Source of the DNA: Streptomyces sp. NA02950
GTDB taxonomy: Bacteria; Actinomycetota; Actinomycetes; Streptomycetales; Streptomycetaceae
Direction: 5' to 3'
Assembly: GCF_013364155.1 (NCBI RefSeq)
Contig: NZ_CP054916.1
Span: forward strand, 5,453,001-5,517,000
DNA length: 64,000 nt
Shown: piece after piece, positions 41,552 to 50,011 of the stretch
How positions within the stretch are numbered: the first letter of the stretch is position 1
Layout of the letters: the number at the start of each line of letters is the position of its first letter
The notes under the pieces: model-generated
What the model saw: the letters and a program-made list of their open reading frames with translations, nothing else
The model's database searches: none
Told to the model about the DNA's origin: nothing
Position numbers and translations under genes: made by a program

Positions 41552-43531
41552 ATGGTCGTGCTCTTCGTCCTGATCGCACTGGCCGTCGTCGGACTGCTGG
41601 CCGGGGTGCACTGGTATCTGTGGCGGCGGCTGGTCCGCGATACGACGGCGCCCGGCGGGCTCGCCCGCCGGGCGGGCACGGTGGCGGCGTTCGTCCTGCC
41701 GCTGACCACGGTCGGGGCGCTGGTCGCGGGGCGCGCCGGAGCGCCCTTCGCGCTCCAGCGCACGCTGGCCTGGCCCGGCTATCTGTGGCTTGCGCTGGTC
41801 CTGTACCTGACCCTCGCCCTCCTGGTGGGCGAGGGTCTGCGCCCGCTCCTCGTGCGGATTGCGCCGTCCGGCGGGGGCGAGGGGGAGGGGCCGGAGGCAC
41901 CCGACGGCACGGCTACGGACGCGGGTCCGGCGGCCAACGGGCCGGGCGGGCCCGGAGGCCCCGGCACGTCGGGCGCCTCGGCCGCCCCGGACGTTTCCGG
42001 GGCCCCCGGCAGCCCCGGGGCCCCCGGCCGCCCGGCGGCGTCGGGAGCCCCGGTGGCGCCTGGCGCAGCCGATGACGCTGGCGCGTCGGGAAGGCTCGGT
42101 GGTCCGGTCGGGTGCGGCGTTTCCGCCGTCCCGGACGGGTCGGTTGCCTCCGGCGCCCTCAACGCTTCGGGTGGACCGGGGGCGTCGGTTGCGCCGGGCC
42201 TTCCGGAGGGTTCCGGTGGATCCGGATCTTCCGGTGGCTCCGTTGACGCTGGCGCGTCGGGAAGGCTCGGTGGTCCGGTCGGGTGCGGCGTTACCGCCGT
42301 CCCGGACGGGTCGGTTGCCTCCGGCGCCCTCAACGCTCCGGGTGGCCCGGGGGCGTCGGTTGCGCCGGGCCTTCCGGAGGGTTCCGGTGGACCCGGAGGT
42401 CCTGGCACATCCGGTGTCTCCGGTCCGGGGGAGGTGCCCGGTGCGCCCGCAGCTTCGGGTGGCTCCGCAGCTGCTGACGCACCCGGAGCGCGCGGTGCTC
42501 CGGTCGGGCGCGGCGCCTCCGCCGTACCGGACGGGCCCGGCACCCCTGGCACCCCCGCCGTTCCGGGCACGCCCGACGCCCCGGCAGCCCTGGGAACGTC
42601 CGGCGCGCCCGGTCTCCCCGAGAGCTCCGACGCCGTCGATGCCCCGGGCGGACCGGGGGCGTCCGGGGCTCCGGCGGGCCCCGGGGTCACGCAAACGTCC
42701 GCTTCCGCTTCGCGGCGGCTGTTTGTCGCGCGGGCGATTGCGGCCGGGGCCACCGCGGTGGCGGCGGGGACCGTGGGGTATGGGATGGCGACCGTGTTGC
42801 GGGGGCCGCGCGTCAAGCGGGTCACCGTGCCGCTGGCCAAGCTGCCGCGCCGGGCGCACGGATTCCGGATCGCCGTCGTCAGCGATATCCACCTCGGGCC
42901 GATCCTGGGCCGCGCCCACACCCGGCGGGTCGTCGACACGATCAACCGCACCAACCCCGACCTCATCGCCGTCGTCGGCGACCTCGTGGACGGCAGTGTG
43001 GCCGATCTGGGGCCTGCCGCCGAGCCGTTGCGGGGGCTGCGAGCCCGTCACGGCTCGTTCTTCGTCACCGGGAACCACGAGTACTTCTCCGGTGCCCGCC
43101 CATGGGTCGATCACGTACGTGAGCTGGGGCTGCGCCCGCTGGAGAACGAGCGGACCGAACTGCCCGGCTTCGATCTCGCCGGAGTGAACGACGTGGCGGG
43201 CGAGGACGAGGGCCAGGGGCCGGACTTCGACAGGGCGCTCGGCGACCGCGACCGGTCGCGGGCCTCGGTGCTGCTGGCACATCAGCCCGTGGTGATCCAC
43301 GACGCGGTGGACCACGGTGTGGACCTCCAGCTCTCCGGCCATACGCACGGCGGGCAGATGTGGCCCGGCAATCTCGTCGCGGCGCTCGCCAACCCGACCG
43401 TCGCCGGGCTCGAGCGCTACGGCGACACCCAGCTCTACGTGACCCGTGGCGCCGGGGCCTGGGGGCCGCCGGTACGGGTCGGGGCCCCGCCGGACGTCAC
43501 GGTCGTGGAACTGGCGTCGCTTCGCGCCTGA
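41552..43531 (+). CDS. membrane-anchored metallophosphoesterase with expanded repeat linker
   Basis: 659 residues in three parts. Residues 1-~110 hold three to four transmembrane helices (VVLFVLIALAVVGLLAGVHW, AFVLPLTTVGALVAG, LWLALVLYLTLALLVG). Residues ~110-385 are a Gly/Pro/Ala/Ser linker with collagen-like triplets and a 57-residue tandem repeat. After another helix comes a calcineurin-type phosphoesterase with all metal motifs: VVSDIHLG, VVGDLVDG, TGNHEYF, LLAHQP and SGHTHGGQ. Its orthologues usually lack so long a linker. The substrate is unknown; periplasmic-side UDP-sugar or phospholipid hydrolases use this fold. The 3' end overlaps the convergent VanZ gene by 97 bases. Confidence 0.88.
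   Translation: MVVLFVLIALAVVGLLAGVHWYLWRRLVRDTTAPGGLARRAGTVAAFVLPLTTVGALVAGRAGAPFALQRTLAWPGYLWLALVLYLTLALLVGEGLRPLLVRIAPSGGGEGEGPEAPDGTATDAGPAANGPGGPGGPGTSGASAAPDVSGAPGSPGAPGRPAASGAPVAPGAADDAGASGRLGGPVGCGVSAVPDGSVASGALNASGGPGASVAPGLPEGSGGSGSSGGSVDAGASGRLGGPVGCGVTAVPDGSVASGALNAPGGPGASVAPGLPEGSGGPGGPGTSGVSGPGEVPGAPAASGGSAAADAPGARGAPVGRGASAVPDGPGTPGTPAVPGTPDAPAALGTSGAPGLPESSDAVDAPGGPGASGAPAGPGVTQTSASASRRLFVARAIAAGATAVAAGTVGYGMATVLRGPRVKRVTVPLAKLPRRAHGFRIAVVSDIHLGPILGRAHTRRVVDTINRTNPDLIAVVGDLVDGSVADLGPAAEPLRGLRARHGSFFVTGNHEYFSGARPWVDHVRELGLRPLENERTELPGFDLAGVNDVAGEDEGQGPDFDRALGDRDRSRASVLLAHQPVVIHDAVDHGVDLQLSGHTHGGQMWPGNLVAALANPTVAGLERYGDTQLYVTRGAGAWGPPVRVGAPPDVTVVELASLRA
42074..42400 (+). repeat. 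171-bp in-frame tandem repeat within the metallophosphoesterase gene
   Basis: The segment starting GACGCTGGCGCGTCGGG at 42074 recurs at 42245 with only a few substitutions over about 155 bases, a 171-bp (57-codon) period. A third, degraded copy begins near 42475 (GACGCACCCGGAGCGC). The reading frame is preserved throughout. Confidence 0.9.
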
Positions 43532-45044: not shown

Positions 45045-45860
45045 CTACTGCGGATCGCGGTTGAAAACCGCCTTCGACCAGAAGCAGCCGAGCGTGGAGA
45101 GCGCCAGGCACCAGGCGACCGCGAGCCATCTGTTGTGCCCGATCTCGCTGCCGAGCAGCAGCCCGCGCAGGGTCTCGATGGCCGGGGTGAACGGCTGGTA
45201 CTCGGCGATCGGCTGGAACCAGCCCGGCATCGCCTCGACCGGGACGAAGGCGCTGGAGATGAGCGGGAGGAAGATCAGCGGCATCGCGTTGTTGCTGGCC
45301 GCCTCGGCGTTCGGGCTGACCATGCCCATCCCGACCGCGATCCAGGTGAGCGCCAGGGCGAACAGCGTGAGCAGCCCGATCGCCGCGATCCACTCCAGGG
45401 CCGTGGCGTCCGTCGAGCGAAAGCCGATGGCCACGCCGACGGCACCGACGAGAACCACGCTCATGACCGACTGCAACACGCTGCCGACGACATGCCCGAC
45501 CAGCACGGAACCGCGGTGGATCGCCATCGTGCGGAAGCGGGCGATGATGCCCTCGGTCATGTCGTTGGAGACGGACACCGCGGTGCCGATCGTGGTGCTC
45601 CCGATGGTCATCAGCAGCAGGCCCGGCACGAGGTAGGCGATGTACGCGGAGCGGTCGGCGCCGCCGCCGATGCCCGCGCTCATCACGTCGCCGAAGACGT
45701 AGACGAAGAGCAGCAGCAGCATGATCGGTGTGAGCAGGACGTTCAGGGTGAGGGAGGGGTAGCGCCGTGCGTGCAGGAGGTTGCGGCGCAGCATCGTGGA
45801 CGAGTCGCGCACGGCGAGGGAGATCCGGGGCGGGCGGGTGGCGGCCAGGGGGGCGCTCAT
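45045..45860 (-). CDS. ABC-2 type permease, daunorubicin-resistance (DrrB) family
   Basis: 271 residues with six helices of the ABC-2 exporter type: SLTLNVLLTPIMLLLLFVYVFGDV, YIAYLVPGLLLMTIGSTTIG, SVMSVVLVGAVGVAIGF, LTLFALALTWIAVGMGMVS, LIFLPLISSAFVPVEAMP and the C-terminal WLAVAWCLALSTLGCFW. The conserved FRTMAIHRGSVLVGH coupling loop is present. It starts at ATG 45860, overlapping the ATPase stop by four bases, so the two subunits are coupled. The substrate is unknown; relatives export hydrophobic drugs. Confidence 0.92.
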   Translation of the reverse strand: MSAPLAATRPPRISLAVRDSSTMLRRNLLHARRYPSLTLNVLLTPIMLLLLFVYVFGDVMSAGIGGGADRSAYIAYLVPGLLLMTIGSTTIGTAVSVSNDMTEGIIARFRTMAIHRGSVLVGHVVGSVLQSVMSVVLVGAVGVAIGFRSTDATALEWIAAIGLLTLFALALTWIAVGMGMVSPNAEAASNNAMPLIFLPLISSAFVPVEAMPGWFQPIAEYQPFTPAIETLRGLLLGSEIGHNRWLAVAWCLALSTLGCFWSKAVFNRDPQ

Positions 45861-46849
45861 CGGACAGTCTCCTTGGGCTTGTCGGCGCTGCCGGTCAGGG
45901 CGAAGAACACGTCGTCGAGGTCGGGTGTGTGCACGGTCAGTTCGTCGGCCTCGATGCCGAGCGAGTCCAGCCAGTCGAGGATGGAGCGCAGCTCCCGCTG
46001 GCTGCCGTCACTGGGGATCTGCAGCGACAGCGCCTCGTCGTCCCGGGTGACCTCGCGCAGCGCGAGGGCGGCGCTCTGGTACGCGGACGGGTCGGAGAAG
46101 CGCAGTCGGACATGCCCGCCGGGGATCAGCCGCTTCAGCTCCTCGGCGGTGCCCTGGGCGGCGATCTTTCCGTCGTTGAGCACGGCGATACGGTCGGCGA
46201 GCTCGTCGGCCTCGTCCAGGTACTGGGTGGTGAGGAAGACGGTGACACCGTCGGAGACCAACTCACGGATGATGCCCCACATATTGTGCCGGGAACGCGG
46301 ATCGAGGCCGGTCGTCGGCTCGTCGAGGAAGATGATCCGCGGGTTGCCGACCAGCGTCATGGCGATGTCGAGGCGGCGCTTCATGCCGCCGGAGTAGGTG
46401 GACGCGGGCTTCTTCGCCGCCGCCACCAGGTCGAAGCGCTCCAGCAGCTCGGCGGCGACCCGCCGCCCCTCGCGGCGGGGGAGGTGGTGCAGGTCCGCCA
46501 TGAGGAGCATGTTCTCCTCGCCGGTGATCAGCCCGTCGACGGCGGAGAACTGCCCGGTGACGCCGATCGCGGCGCGCACCCCGTCCGGTGACGTGGCGAG
46601 GTCGTGGCCCGCGACCTGGGCCTGCCCGCCGTCGGCGGTGATGAGCGTGGACAGGATCTGCACGGTGGTGGTCTTGCCGGCACCGTTCGGCCCGAGCAGC
46701 GCGAACACGGACCCGCCCGGGATATGCAGGTCGATGCCGTCGAGGACGGTCTTGTCGCCGTAGGACTTGCGCAGATCGGCGGTAAAGACGGCGGCCGGTG
46801 ACGGGTGACCGTCGGCGCGCCTGGACGTGAGCATGACAGATGAAGGCAC
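45857..46849 (-). CDS. ABC exporter ATP-binding protein, daunorubicin-resistance (DrrA) family
   Basis: 330 residues. Walker A GPNGAGKTTT, signature YSGGMKRRLD and Walker B IIFLDEPTTGLDP are intact, with the DrrA-type C-terminal domain (SLGIEADELTVHTPDLDDVFFALTG). GTG 46849 is chosen because GGGAGGG lies 5 bases upstream and gives the family's normal length; an internal ATG at 46834 is an alternative. It powers the permease encoded next. The DUF4097 gene lies 61 bp upstream, and the ribbon-helix-helix regulator precedes that. Confidence 0.93.
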   Translation of the reverse strand: MPSSVMLTSRRADGHPSPAAVFTADLRKSYGDKTVLDGIDLHIPGGSVFALLGPNGAGKTTTVQILSTLITADGGQAQVAGHDLATSPDGVRAAIGVTGQFSAVDGLITGEENMLLMADLHHLPRREGRRVAAELLERFDLVAAAKKPASTYSGGMKRRLDIAMTLVGNPRIIFLDEPTTGLDPRSRHNMWGIIRELVSDGVTVFLTTQYLDEADELADRIAVLNDGKIAAQGTAEELKRLIPGGHVRLRFSDPSAYQSAALALREVTRDDEALSLQIPSDGSQRELRSILDWLDSLGIEADELTVHTPDLDDVFFALTGSADKPKETVR

Positions 46850-46910: not shown

Positions 46911-47753
46911 TCAGACCTTGGCGCGGCGGACGTCGATGTTGCCCCAGCGGGTCCGGGCGCGGACCTCGACGGTGCCCTCGGTCTCCTCCGGGGGTTCGGA
47001 GTCGGCGAGCGCGTTGCGCACCTGCCCGCGCTCGGAGCTGGCGTCGAGCCAGGTGGCGGTGCCCTCGCGGACGCCGACCTCGATGGCGCCGGAGGACGTC
47101 TCCAACTGGACGGTGCCGGAGGCGACTTCACTGACGCGCAGCGCGCCGTAGGCGGTGGTGGCGGTGACCGAGCTCTCGGCACGCGCGATGTCGATGTCGC
47201 CGTGGGCGCCGCTCACTTGCAGATCGCCGGTCACGGCGGCGACGGCCGTGGCACCGTGCGAGTTCTTCAGGACGGCGGGACCGTCGACGGTGCCGACGCG
47301 TAGGCTGCCGGAGCTGGTGGTGATACCGGCCGTGCCCTCGACCCGGTCGACGGTGATCGAGCCGTGGGAGACGGTCAGTTGGAGCGGCCCGGTGGTGTCC
47401 AGGCGGACGTCGCCGACCGAGGTCTTGACCCGGGCCTCGCCGAGCCGGCCCTCGCCGAGCATGTTGATCCAGGAGCCGGTCACGTCGACGCGCGAGCCCG
47501 TGGGCAGGTCGACCGCCACGTCGACGGCGCCGGAGGGGCCGATGAGGCGGCGTTCCTTCGTCCTGACGGTCAGGACGCCGCTCGCGTACGTGACCTCGGT
47601 CTGCTCGGCGGCCCGCACGTCCTTGTCCCGTTTCGGGTCGCCGGGCCGTACCTCGACGACGGTGTCGAGGCGGTCGCTCGCGGTGATCCGGAGGGAACCT
47701 GCGCCGATGTGCGCGGTGATCGAAATCGGTTCGGGAGTGTCGAAAGAAGGCAT
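46911..47753 (-). CDS. DUF4097-family beta-strand repeat protein
   Basis: 280 residues made of alternating short beta strands, the right-handed adhesin-like repeat of DUF4097 (SVGDVRLDTTGP, SHGSITVDRVEG, SSGSLRVGTVDG, SHGATAVAAVTG, AHGDIDIARAES, AYGALRVSEVAS, SSGAIEVGVREG). There is no signal peptide, so it is probably cytoplasmic. ATG 47753 has GAGGAC about 9 bases upstream. In actinobacteria such proteins often sit between a HicB/RHH regulator and a Drr-type transporter, as here. The biochemical role is unknown. Confidence 0.85.
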   Translation of the reverse strand: MPSFDTPEPISITAHIGAGSLRITASDRLDTVVEVRPGDPKRDKDVRAAEQTEVTYASGVLTVRTKERRLIGPSGAVDVAVDLPTGSRVDVTGSWINMLGEGRLGEARVKTSVGDVRLDTTGPLQLTVSHGSITVDRVEGTAGITTSSGSLRVGTVDGPAVLKNSHGATAVAAVTGDLQVSGAHGDIDIARAESSVTATTAYGALRVSEVASGTVQLETSSGAIEVGVREGTATWLDASSERGQVRNALADSEPPEETEGTVEVRARTRWGNIDVRRAKV

Positions 47754-47848: not shown

Positions 47849-48367
47849 CTAGCGCACCCAGCCCGTGAAGCTCTGTCCGACGCTGCGGGTCTTCTCCGCC
47901 GTACGCGGCCGGGTGCCGCCGTCGACCGCGGCCGACACGGCGCGCACCAGCCACGCGTTGACCGACAGGCTCTCGCGGCTCGCGGCCTCCTCGGCGCGGG
48001 CCTTGAGGTGGGCCGGCAGACGCAGGTTGACGCGGGCGGTGCCGCCCTCGTCGCTGTCGCCGGGGGCCGGGGCCCTGAGTGATTCGGTGGGCGCGGCCGG
48101 CTCCGCGGGGGCGCCGCCGGCGGTGGGCGGCGGTGTCACCACGAAGTCCGGGTCGAGCCCGCGCAGCCGTACGTCGACCGAGCCGGGGGCGAGTTCGCGG
48201 GTGATCTCGTCCATCGCGGCGGAGAGCACATTGAGCATGGTCAGCCGGGTCGCCGACTCCAGAGGAGCGGTGAGCCGCTCGGCCAGCTCGCGGGCATCGT
48301 CCCCGCCGGCTTCGGCGGCCACCGCGAGTTCGCGGCGGAGGGTGTCGACATACGGGGTGAGGTCCAT
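47849..48367 (-). CDS. ribbon-helix-helix (HicB-type) DNA-binding protein
   Basis: 172 residues. The N-terminal ~65 residues are helical (VDTLRRELAVAAEAGGDDA, LESATRLTMLNVLSAAMDEI), then a Pro/Ala linker. The C-terminal ~45 residues form a ribbon-helix-helix: strand ARVNLRLP, helix AHLKARAEEAASRES and helix LSVNAWLVRAVSAAV. It is annotated in relatives as a HicB-family antitoxin, but no HicA toxin is encoded beside it. It is the first gene of a probable operon with DUF4097 and the Drr-type transporter, and its upstream region carries phased repeats suited to cooperative RHH binding. I infer an autoregulatory repressor. No ribosome site precedes ATG 48367. Confidence 0.83.
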   Translation of the reverse strand: MDLTPYVDTLRRELAVAAEAGGDDARELAERLTAPLESATRLTMLNVLSAAMDEITRELAPGSVDVRLRGLDPDFVVTPPPTAGGAPAEPAAPTESLRAPAPGDSDEGGTARVNLRLPAHLKARAEEAASRESLSVNAWLVRAVSAAVDGGTRPRTAEKTRSVGQSFTGWVR

Positions 48368-48417
48368 GACGCCATCATGGCACCACTATGGCGCCATCCG
48401 CAAGTCCGGATGGCGCC
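48367..48417. promoter_or_regulatory. four TGGCGCC-like sites at 11/11/22-bp spacing over the RHH gene start
   Basis: TGACGCC (48367), TGGCACC (48378), TGGCGCC (48389, within the palindrome ATGGCGCCAT) and TGGCGCC (48411) recur at one or two helical turns across the start codon and presumed promoter of the ribbon-helix-helix gene. They match the units of the distal array at 48518-48597. Confidence 0.55.
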
Positions 48418-48517
48418 GCGCCCGCCACGGAGGTAAGGGAGGCCGGTTCTGCCTGCGGAAGCGGAAGGAGGATGACCGGGTCATGGTGGCGCTGCGCAGG
48501 AGCTCCGGGGGTCGAAA

Positions 48518-48597
48518 TGGTGCCGGGTGGCGCCCGGTGACGCCATCTGGTGCCACCTGGTGCCACCCGGTGTCATGTGGCGCCCTGTGATGCCACA
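48518..48597. repeat. eight direct repeats at exact 10-bp period (consensus TGGTGCCACC)
   Basis: Units begin at 48518, 48528, 48538, 48548, 48558, 48568, 48578 and 48588: TGGTGCCGGG, TGGCGCCCGG, TGACGCCATC, TGGTGCCACC, TGGTGCCACC, CGGTGTCATG, TGGCGCCCTG, TGATGCCACA. The first seven bases follow TGGYGCC. The array is noncoding and lies 151-230 bases upstream of the ribbon-helix-helix gene. Arrays with one site per helical turn are a known target form of RHH proteins. Confidence 0.8.
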
Positions 48598-48616
48598 AGA
48601 AGGTGGTGTGCGGGGC

Positions 48617-50011
48617 TCAGTCCTTGGTCTCCTCGAAGGACTTCAGGAAGATGTCGAGCGCCTTCTCGTTCTCCGTCGAGTCCGCCTCGTCCGCCGGGGT
48701 CGTCCACCGGATGGAGAAGCCGCGGCCGCCGCCGACGAGGAAGCCGCGGCCGAAGGTGCGGAACGGATCGCCGCCGATGGCCGAGGACCAGGTCATATCC
48801 GCCGCATCCCAGTCGCGGTAGTCGACTCTGCGGATGTCGTCGATCCGCTGGAAGCCCGGGGAGAACTTCTCCAGCGACGGGACCAGGCTCTTCCAGACCT
48901 CGACGGGGTCCTCGTCCTCGGAGTCCTTGCCGAAGGTGACGACCAGGTCCCGGTTGTCGTCCTCGTCCGGCGAGGCGAACTTCACATGGAAGCGCGAGCC
49001 GCTCTCCACCCGCTTCCAGCCCTTGGGCAGATCGATGGAGAACCCTTCGGCCTCGGCGGTGTAGCGGACGAAGCCCGCGGGCTCGTCGCCACCACCCCCG
49101 CCACCGCCTTTGCCGGGCGGATCGGAAGGGGTGGCCGGAGCGGAGGGGGCGGCCGGAGCGGAGGGATCGGATGGCCCGGATGGAGGTGACGGGGAGGGGG
49201 GCGATGTCTTCGGGGGAGTGGGCTCGCGGGGCAGGCTCGGCGGAGCCCCGTTCGGCGGTGACGCGGAACGGGTGGGGCCGGAAGCGCGGTTGTCGCCCCC
49301 GGTCAGGGTGCCGGTCGAGGCGAGCGCCACCACCGAGACGACCGACACCAGGGCGAGCCCGGCGGCCAGGGCCACCGCGGGCCGGACCTTCCGCACGTCG
49401 CGCCGGTGCCCACACGGCCACAGTGCCTCATAGGTGCCGTGCAGCCAGGGGAGCCGCGGCGCTGTCCGCGTATCGGCTGGTCGATCCTGGTTCAGGGCCC
49501 GCGTCAGCGCCTGCCGGACCAGCGGTTCGGTCAGCCGCGACGGGGGGTCGGGGCGCAGCAGCCCCTGGATGACCTGGGTGAGCGGTCCGGCCCTGGTCAC
49601 GTCGAGCCCGCTCCAGTCGGGGTGCGGCGGATGGCCCTCGACCATGACGAAGAGGATCGCGCCCAGGGACCACAGATCGGACTCGGGGGTTCCGCGGTCT
49701 CCCCGTACCTGTTCGGGGGAGGCGAACGCGGGGTCGGTGACCGGGCGGGAGGGATCCGTGCCGGTGGGGCCGAACCCGCTGAGAACGATCTCATCGTCGG
49801 GCAGGAGCAGCACTCGCGCCGGAGTGAGATCGCCGTGGGTGATGCCCTTGGTGTGGGCGGCGCTGAGGACGTCGAGCAACCGCAGGCCGATCCCGGCCGC
49901 CCGAGCGGGCTCCAGGCGGCCCTTTCGGTCGAGGAGTTCACTCAGAGGACAGCGGTCGGTATCGGGCCGTACGGTCTGCGTCCCGTGGACGGGCTGGTCC
50001 GCGCCGATCAT
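48617..50011 (-). CDS. truncated pseudokinase with transmembrane and external DxPxGW domain
   Basis: 464 residues. Residues ~20-195 match the C-lobe of an actinobacterial Ser/Thr kinase (LEPARAAGIGLRLLDVLSAAH, SPEQVRG, ESDLWSLGAILFVMVEG), but the whole N-lobe with the glycine loop and the ATP lysine is missing. Within the C-lobe the catalytic loop is ITHGD61LTPAR (Lys and Asn replaced by Thr63 and Arg66), and the DFG motif is SGFG (Asp lost). It therefore cannot be a canonical kinase. One transmembrane helix near 210-232, a Pro/Ser linker and an external domain beginning EGFSIDLPKGWKRV follow. Transcribed toward the RHH operon, separated by the repeat array. Confidence 0.85.
   Translation of the reverse strand: MIGADQPVHGTQTVRPDTDRCPLSELLDRKGRLEPARAAGIGLRLLDVLSAAHTKGITHGDLTPARVLLLPDDEIVLSGFGPTGTDPSRPVTDPAFASPEQVRGDRGTPESDLWSLGAILFVMVEGHPPHPDWSGLDVTRAGPLTQVIQGLLRPDPPSRLTEPLVRQALTRALNQDRPADTRTAPRLPWLHGTYEALWPCGHRRDVRKVRPAVALAAGLALVSVVSVVALASTGTLTGGDNRASGPTRSASPPNGAPPSLPREPTPPKTSPPSPSPPSGPSDPSAPAAPSAPATPSDPPGKGGGGGGGDEPAGFVRYTAEAEGFSIDLPKGWKRVESGSRFHVKFASPDEDDNRDLVVTFGKDSEDEDPVEVWKSLVPSLEKFSPGFQRIDDIRRVDYRDWDAADMTWSSAIGGDPFRTFGRGFLVGGGRGFSIRWTTPADEADSTENEKALDIFLKSFEETKD

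Follow-up and report, generated by a model that had tools for sequence, protein, structure and literature searches.

A phased array of palindromic boxes ahead of a ribbon-helix-helix gene in Streptomyces, predicted to be the autoregulatory operator of an RHH-DUF4097-DrrAB operon

Introduction

The ribbon-helix-helix (RHH) repressor MetJ binds tandem 8-bp palindromic met boxes, AGACGTCT, which abut at a step of 8 bp. Lys23 and Thr25 read this sequence, with Thr25 facing the A, and S-adenosylmethionine acts as corepressor. The operator of the Arc repressor of phage P22 is short, with dimer centres 11 bp apart and no long array. The omega repressor of pSM19035, which serves plasmid copy control and partition, places RHH dimers on long arrays of tandem 7-bp heptads.

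The window investigated here is the whole stretch of DNA that was analysed, 64,000 nucleotides from Streptomyces sp. NA02950. It carries an RHH gene preceded by boxes of the form TGRYRYCA. As in the MetJ operators, these boxes are tandem 8-bp palindromes; the box of the loci with Ser or Thr at residue 114 of the RHH protein has the met box core GACGTC, and Thr25 of MetJ occupies the same strand position as residue 114. The step is different, with 8 bp for met boxes against 11 bp (302 of 427 proximal pairs) and 10 bp (distal boxes) here, and neither the N-terminal part nor the operon resembles that of MetJ. Arc and Mnt are similar in their DNA-binding strand (QFNLRWP in Arc, RVNLRLP here), in their profile matches and, for the Arc operator, in the 11-bp dimer spacing, but differ in their phage context, their short operator and the lack of an N-terminal part of about 100 residues. 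With omega the locus shares the principle of RHH dimers on long arrays of short sites, whereas the heptads and the plasmid role contrast with the 10- and 11-bp steps here, where the box shows no 7-bp repetition.

AmrZ of Pseudomonas is an autorepressor that reads 5'-GGC half-sites through the strand residues Lys18, Val20 and Arg22 (PMC3325190). Its own promoter carries two sites and no phased array, and it has many other target genes. An actinobacterial operon of a Toastrack (DUF4097) protein, an ABC ATPase, a permease and an RHH factor has been noted, and Toastrack proteins were proposed to help assemble sub-membrane stress-signalling complexes (PMC11237479). This is very likely the same kind of operon as the one in the window, so the operon type is already known. 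The portion of that account considered here does not describe an operator, box, phasing or recognition code, and we found no description of such an operator in the literature searched by titles and abstract openings.

An eight-unit array with a 10-bp step

A putative distal operator array occupies 48518..48597 on the minus strand, roughly from -230 to -151 relative to the RHH start codon, and starts 19 bp past the stop codon of a kinase-like gene. Its unit starts, from 48518 to 48588, are spaced by exactly 10 bases, and each unit consists of the 8-bp palindrome TGRYRYCA plus 2 bp. The eight units match TGRYRYCA at 7, 7, 8, 8, 8, 7, 7 and 8 of 8 positions. The resulting sum of 60 of 64 was the highest eight-unit sum of the window when steps of 7 to 13 were tried, while sums in 30 dinucleotide-preserving shuffles of the window (steps of 8 to 12) did not exceed 43. 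With a 7-bp step the best eight-unit sum, scored with the TGRYRYCA box, was 40. The sequence-only reading had described eight TGGYGCC units at exact 10-base steps. Both spacing and consensus were confirmed, with TGGYGCC exact in five of the eight units and the units at 48538, 48568 and 48588 off by one or two bases; the palindromic nature of the unit had been overlooked.

The same reading had proposed a genome search for further TGGYGCC arrays. In the strain's own genome, the pattern TGGYRCCA-N2/3-YGRYRYCR gave 16 rows, seven at the locus and nine elsewhere, compared with 10 for a reversed control pattern. The stricter pattern TGGYGCC-N3-TGGYGCC occurred three times, twice at the locus and once elsewhere, compared with four for its control. 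The counts elsewhere do not exceed those of the controls (9 vs 10 and 1 vs 4), so in this genome clustered tandem boxes were found at the RHH locus only.

Proximal boxes and a putative promoter

Further boxes lie on the minus strand at the start of the RHH gene; their positions are counted in gene direction, taking the first base of the ATG as 0. Proximal boxes 1, 2 and 3 begin at -29 (48389..48396), -18 (48378..48385) and -7 (48367..48374), follow one another at an 11-bp step and match at 8 of 8 positions each. Another box, beginning at -51 (48411..48418, TGGCGCCG on the plus strand), lies 22 bp further on and matches at 7 of 8. The four sites reported earlier at 48367, 48378, 48389 and 48411, with intervals of 11, 11 and 22 bases, are thus real. 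Their overlap with the start of the RHH gene also stands, but it had gone unnoticed that they share bases with a putative promoter as well as with the start codon. Box 1 is located between a putative -35 element, TTGCGG (48398..48403, minus strand), and a putative -10 element, CATGAT (48374..48379, minus strand), six bases before the ATG. Box 2 ends in the two bases with which the putative -10 element begins, and box 3 extends from the last T of that element to the A of the ATG.

Promoter bases were compared in 253 loci, grouped as Asn-type (179) or Ser/Thr-type (74) by residue 114. A T at -35 is present in 0.97 of the Asn-type and 0.93 of the Ser/Thr-type loci, and in the Asn-type loci two further bases are almost invariant, A at -11 (0.96) and T at -7 (0.97). 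In several distant relatives the -35 element reads TTGACA. A simple consensus promoter scan of 48300-48700 gave no match. The near-constant T at -35, A at -11 and T at -7 fit a -35/-10 promoter with a leaderless transcript, for which we infer a start point at the ATG. Leaderless mRNAs are common in Streptomyces, and 264 mRNAs of S. coelicolor have leaders shorter than 10 nt (PMC4681348).

Conservation of the proximal boxes in relatives

Searches at E ≤ 0.001 detected the RHH family in 27 of 41 near genomes, 143 of 394 genomes drawn from the class and 188 of 295 genomes of the genus, and in three other families in 12 of 14, 82 of 150 and 20 of 35 genomes. The gene is not universal among the genomes searched. 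The 80 named loci are the best 80 of 373, and the Streptomyces sample is therefore skewed to close relatives; 60 loci outside the first set were picked by hand from the class-wide matches listed, for family spread. From 308 loci, 10 without an RHH match, one without the N-terminus (L300) and 44 duplicates were removed, leaving the 253 loci, which include that of the window.

At least one perfect box was present within 60 bp of the start codon in 251 of these loci, the exceptions being L215 and L268. Two or more such boxes were found in 242 loci and three or four in 155. The commonest starts are those of the three proximal boxes, -29 (173 loci), -18 (195) and -7 (178); a perfect box at -51 occurs in 34. 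Neighbouring proximal boxes are 11 bp apart in 302 of 427 pairs. A loss of periodicity in close relatives that keep the RHH gene, named beforehand as evidence against the sequence-only reading, was not seen for these 11-bp boxes. Comparison of orthologous upstream regions thus shows the proximal phasing to be kept, while the distal 10-bp array is variable (102 of 139 against 8 of 112 loci, as described below).

The link between boxes and gene was assessed in 30 genomes of the genus, chosen by hand from those with and without a match. The strict tandem pattern TGGYRCCA-N2/3-TGGYRCCA was present in 12 of 15 genomes with the RHH gene, in 11 of them beside the gene, and 15 of the 17 places in this group adjoin it. 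Three of the 15 lack the strict pattern and in G015 it occurs solely at a distance from the gene; the RHH genes of these genomes carry looser boxes. The 15 genomes without a detected RHH gene contained two strict places, in two genomes. These are single tandem box pairs (G014:C168:141547 and G016:C13:6241) and could represent chance, a remnant or a diverged relative. Judged by eye, the DNA further upstream varies among the loci, and the boxes stay with the RHH gene.

The RHH protein and its gene neighbourhood

On the minus strand the kinase-like gene (48617-50011) precedes the distal array, followed in the same direction by the RHH gene (47849..48367), the gene of a DUF4097 (Toastrack) protein (46911..47753), that of a DrrA-type ABC ATPase (45857..46834) and that of a DrrB-type ABC-2 permease (45045..45860). 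The starts of the DUF4097 and DrrA-type genes were picked from the translations of their reading frames. The gene order agrees with the earlier statement that the RHH gene heads a DUF4097/Drr-type operon, and in this putative operon the DUF4097 gene would be the second. Of the downstream genes of diverse relatives, 24 loci were viewed, 16 chosen and 10 scanned. All 10 scanned contained DUF4097, with L200 below the curated cut-off, and six further downstream proteins appeared DUF4097-like by eye. On the plus strand, a 659-aa open reading frame at 41552-43531 has a hydrophobic N-terminal part, a long repetitive middle rich in Gly, Ala, Pro and Ser and, by eye in the translation, a phosphoesterase-like C-terminal part.

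The RHH protein (172 aa) consists of an N-terminal part, a linker and a C-terminal RHH part with the strand ARVNLRLP. Searched alone against Pfam, it matched no family at E ≤ 0.001, the N-terminal part included. Among 69 family members, 45 matched HicB, nine RHH_1 and seven Arc. Between about residues 107 and 164, a family profile aligned with RHH proteins of known structure (Arc, E 0.0016; Mnt, 0.0026; AmrZ, 0.088), matches that are weak but consistent, and its top match for the C-terminal part was a DUF1778-type antitoxin (E 0.00033). The Pfam and PDB profile matches of the family thus assign the C-terminal part of the window protein to the RHH class by similarity. A single-protein search had returned TAL-effector repeats over residues 11-105 (24 PDB matches). 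These were judged to be chance matches of leucine- and alanine-rich helices and were rejected; the family profile search gave RHH proteins over the C-terminal part instead. The genome of the window contains a weak second RHH-like match at G000:C1:2200336-2200557 (36% over residues 99-170, E 1.3e-5).

Most of the names among the best 120 of 7963 relatives are "toxin-antitoxin system HicB family antitoxin" or "hypothetical protein", with a few "Histidine kinase". The HicB label is a product of automatic annotation. No HicA toxin was present among the five window proteins scanned (RHH, kinase-like, DUF4097, DrrA and DrrB types). A toxin-antitoxin reading was dropped, as a toxin gene was absent both from these five and from the 10 scanned downstream proteins of relatives. 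The annotated "HicB antitoxin" is instead predicted to be an autoregulator, for which binding sites, a promoter layout and the operon behind it can be specified.

The distal array across relatives

In the region from -300 to -55 of 138 Asn-type loci, 332 perfect boxes were counted, compared with a mean of 10.9 in shuffles. Neighbouring distal boxes were most often 10 bp apart (84 pairs), followed by 20 bp (25) and 22 bp (14), with at most nine for the other steps listed. The 54 Ser/Thr-type loci had 20 distal boxes (2.8 in shuffles) and no 10-bp pair. Runs of at least two boxes at 10 bp, with looser ends allowed, were found in 102 of 139 Streptomycetaceae/f1 loci and in 8 of 112 others. As such runs occur mainly in the Streptomycetaceae, the distal array can be viewed as an elaboration and the 11-bp proximal boxes as the shared core, and the 10-bp array looks like a later addition to the proximal boxes.

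The distal array might have no function beyond that of the proximal boxes and be a minisatellite grown by slippage. The number of units is indeed variable, with a run of two missing in 37 of the 139 Streptomycetaceae/f1 loci, and in L107 five identical 10-bp units, TGGCGTCA-gg, stand in a row upstream of the RHH gene, a sign of possible array growth through unit duplication. However, in 181 neighbouring pairs the two bases of the spacer are the same with frequencies of 0.42 and 0.36, compared with 0.37 and 0.27 for units paired at random. Agreement so little above chance argues against recent slippage as the only source of the array. Around a perfect distal box of the Asn-type loci, moreover, the fraction of matches of at least 7 of 8 peaks at offsets of +10 (0.475), +20 (0.358) and +30 (0.209) and stays below 0.1 at all other offsets from 8 to 33. 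We regard a functionless minisatellite as unlikely.

Covariation of residue 114 with the half-site

Positions 2 and 6 of the RHH strand are Arg in all 253 loci. Position 4, which corresponds to residue 114, is Asn in 179, Thr in 47 and Ser in 27. The third base of the half-site follows this residue. With Asn, 765 of 952 half-sites read TGG, compared with 46 of 158 with Ser and 57 of 246 with Thr. TGA was found in 112 of 158 half-sites with Ser and 189 of 246 with Thr (301 of 404 for the two together). In the -29 and -18 boxes the contrast between the classes is sharpest, at positions 3 and 6; it is weaker in the -7 box, where the third base is G in 0.68 (Asn), 0.41 (Ser) and 0.43 (Thr). Positions 2 and 7 are mainly G and C across the classes. 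In the -18 box the classes differ at position 4 too (T in 0.82 with Asn, 0.63 with Ser and 0.34 with Thr), so the effect is not limited to one base.

The same pattern was obtained in a thinned set of 99 loci, from which proteins shorter than 140 or longer than 215 aa, those at least 82% identical to a chosen one and those without a box had been dropped. The majority of half-sites was TGG in 36 of the 42 Asn loci, with six ties and none with a TGA majority. Among the 57 Ser/Thr loci, 46 had a TGA majority, 10 were tied and one (L190) had a TGG majority. A Mann-Whitney test on this set gave p 1.1e-16, a value that is uncorrected for kinship and does not constitute proof. On the tree, where the 16 ties were left unscored, there were six residue changes and seven operator-state changes, which yielded one independent pair on supported branches and six on all branches. 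The independent-pairs test gave a single supported pair both times it was made, which leaves the sign test without power, and significance after correction for kinship cannot be claimed for the match. Individual cases of the pairing include L102, a Ser locus within Streptomyces, which has TGGCGTCA and TGGTGTCA at -29 and -18, where its Asn relatives L217-L219 have TGGCGCCA and TGGTGCCA; the switch alters one half of each box. In another family, the paralogues L032 and L033 pair Ser with TGACGTCA.

The sequence-only reading had named the product of 47849-48367 as the candidate binder, and both the covariation of residue 114 with the half-site and the linkage of boxes and gene support this choice. 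The covariation, whose independence from kinship is unproven, points to this protein as the likely binder of the boxes. Binding by some other regulator, for which the RHH gene is merely a conserved target, would be compatible with the fact that autoregulation rests on position and on a covariation without a kinship-corrected test, and a second conserved motif near -100 (see below) shows that further factors may act. Such a regulator would not explain why the third base of the half-site tracks residue 114 in the 253 loci, in the thinned 99 and in L102, nor would one expect tandem boxes elsewhere in the genomes to be at background. We therefore consider it quite improbable.

Four Thr-type loci (L170, L175, L176 and L182), with the strand SRTTLRLP or TRTTLRLP, have asymmetric pairs, TGACACCA-N3-TGGTGTCA, in which the outer half-sites are TGA and the inner ones TGG. 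The protein may recognise the inner half-sites of these loci in another way than the outer ones.

Proposed mechanism

To judge from the comparisons above, binding of the RHH protein to the boxes very probably represses the RHH-DUF4097-DrrAB operon, its own gene included. One RHH dimer would occupy each 8-bp TGRYRYCA box, with its two-stranded ribbon in the major groove. In each TGRY half-site, Arg112 and Arg116 would hold the constant part while the third base would be read by residue 114, Asn selecting G and Ser or Thr selecting A. Dimers at -29, -18 and -7 would sit side by side on one face of the DNA over the spacer, the -10 element and the start point. In this position they would shut out RNA polymerase and keep the RHH-DUF4097-DrrA-DrrB operon repressed. 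The boxes share almost a single face of the helix, which makes contact, stacking or looping of dimers at the 10- and 11-bp steps plausible. In the Streptomycetaceae, the 10-bp-step array about 150-230 bp upstream probably raises local occupancy cooperatively, either by looping or by a stack of dimers that spreads. The N-terminal part of the RHH protein or the DUF4097 protein would be the natural candidate for the sensor of a derepressing signal.

The array could also act as RNA, as a hairpin or terminator in the 3'-terminal part of the kinase-like transcript upstream, a reading in line with its start 19 bp after the kinase-like stop codon and with a folding z of -2.68 (2 of 200 shuffles as good), but palindromic boxes fold anyway, a scan found no terminator-like site at the locus and similar arrays lie ahead of the RHH gene where the upstream DNA differs by eye, which makes this highly improbable.

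The 253 loci represent a natural protein-operator series in which one residue apparently chooses one base, and on which RHH recognition can be tested directly. With steps of 11 bp near the promoter and 10 bp in the remote array, RHH cooperation along DNA becomes testable by footprinting. More tentatively, the proteins could form a widespread family of actinomycete autorepressors with a natural one-residue code (Asn with TGG, Ser or Thr with TGA), to which the Streptomycetaceae have added a promoter-remote 10-bp array, where stacked protein forms a one-faced filament that loops or spreads to the 11-bp boxes; we put this forward as a possibility, with more doubt than confidence. If true, operator length would set a cooperative, switch-like response of a membrane-stress export operon.

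A second conserved upstream element

In the stretch that separates the distal array from the promoter, the minus strand of the window reads TTCCGCAGGCAGAA at 48447-48460. This is a variant of a second element, approximately TTTCCGCAGGTCAG, that sits at about -80 to -120 in related loci. The element does not resemble the boxes and may be the site of another regulator. GCAGSTSA, in either orientation, is present in 78 of 249 loci, and the bin from -100 to -81 holds 56 occurrences on the gene strand.
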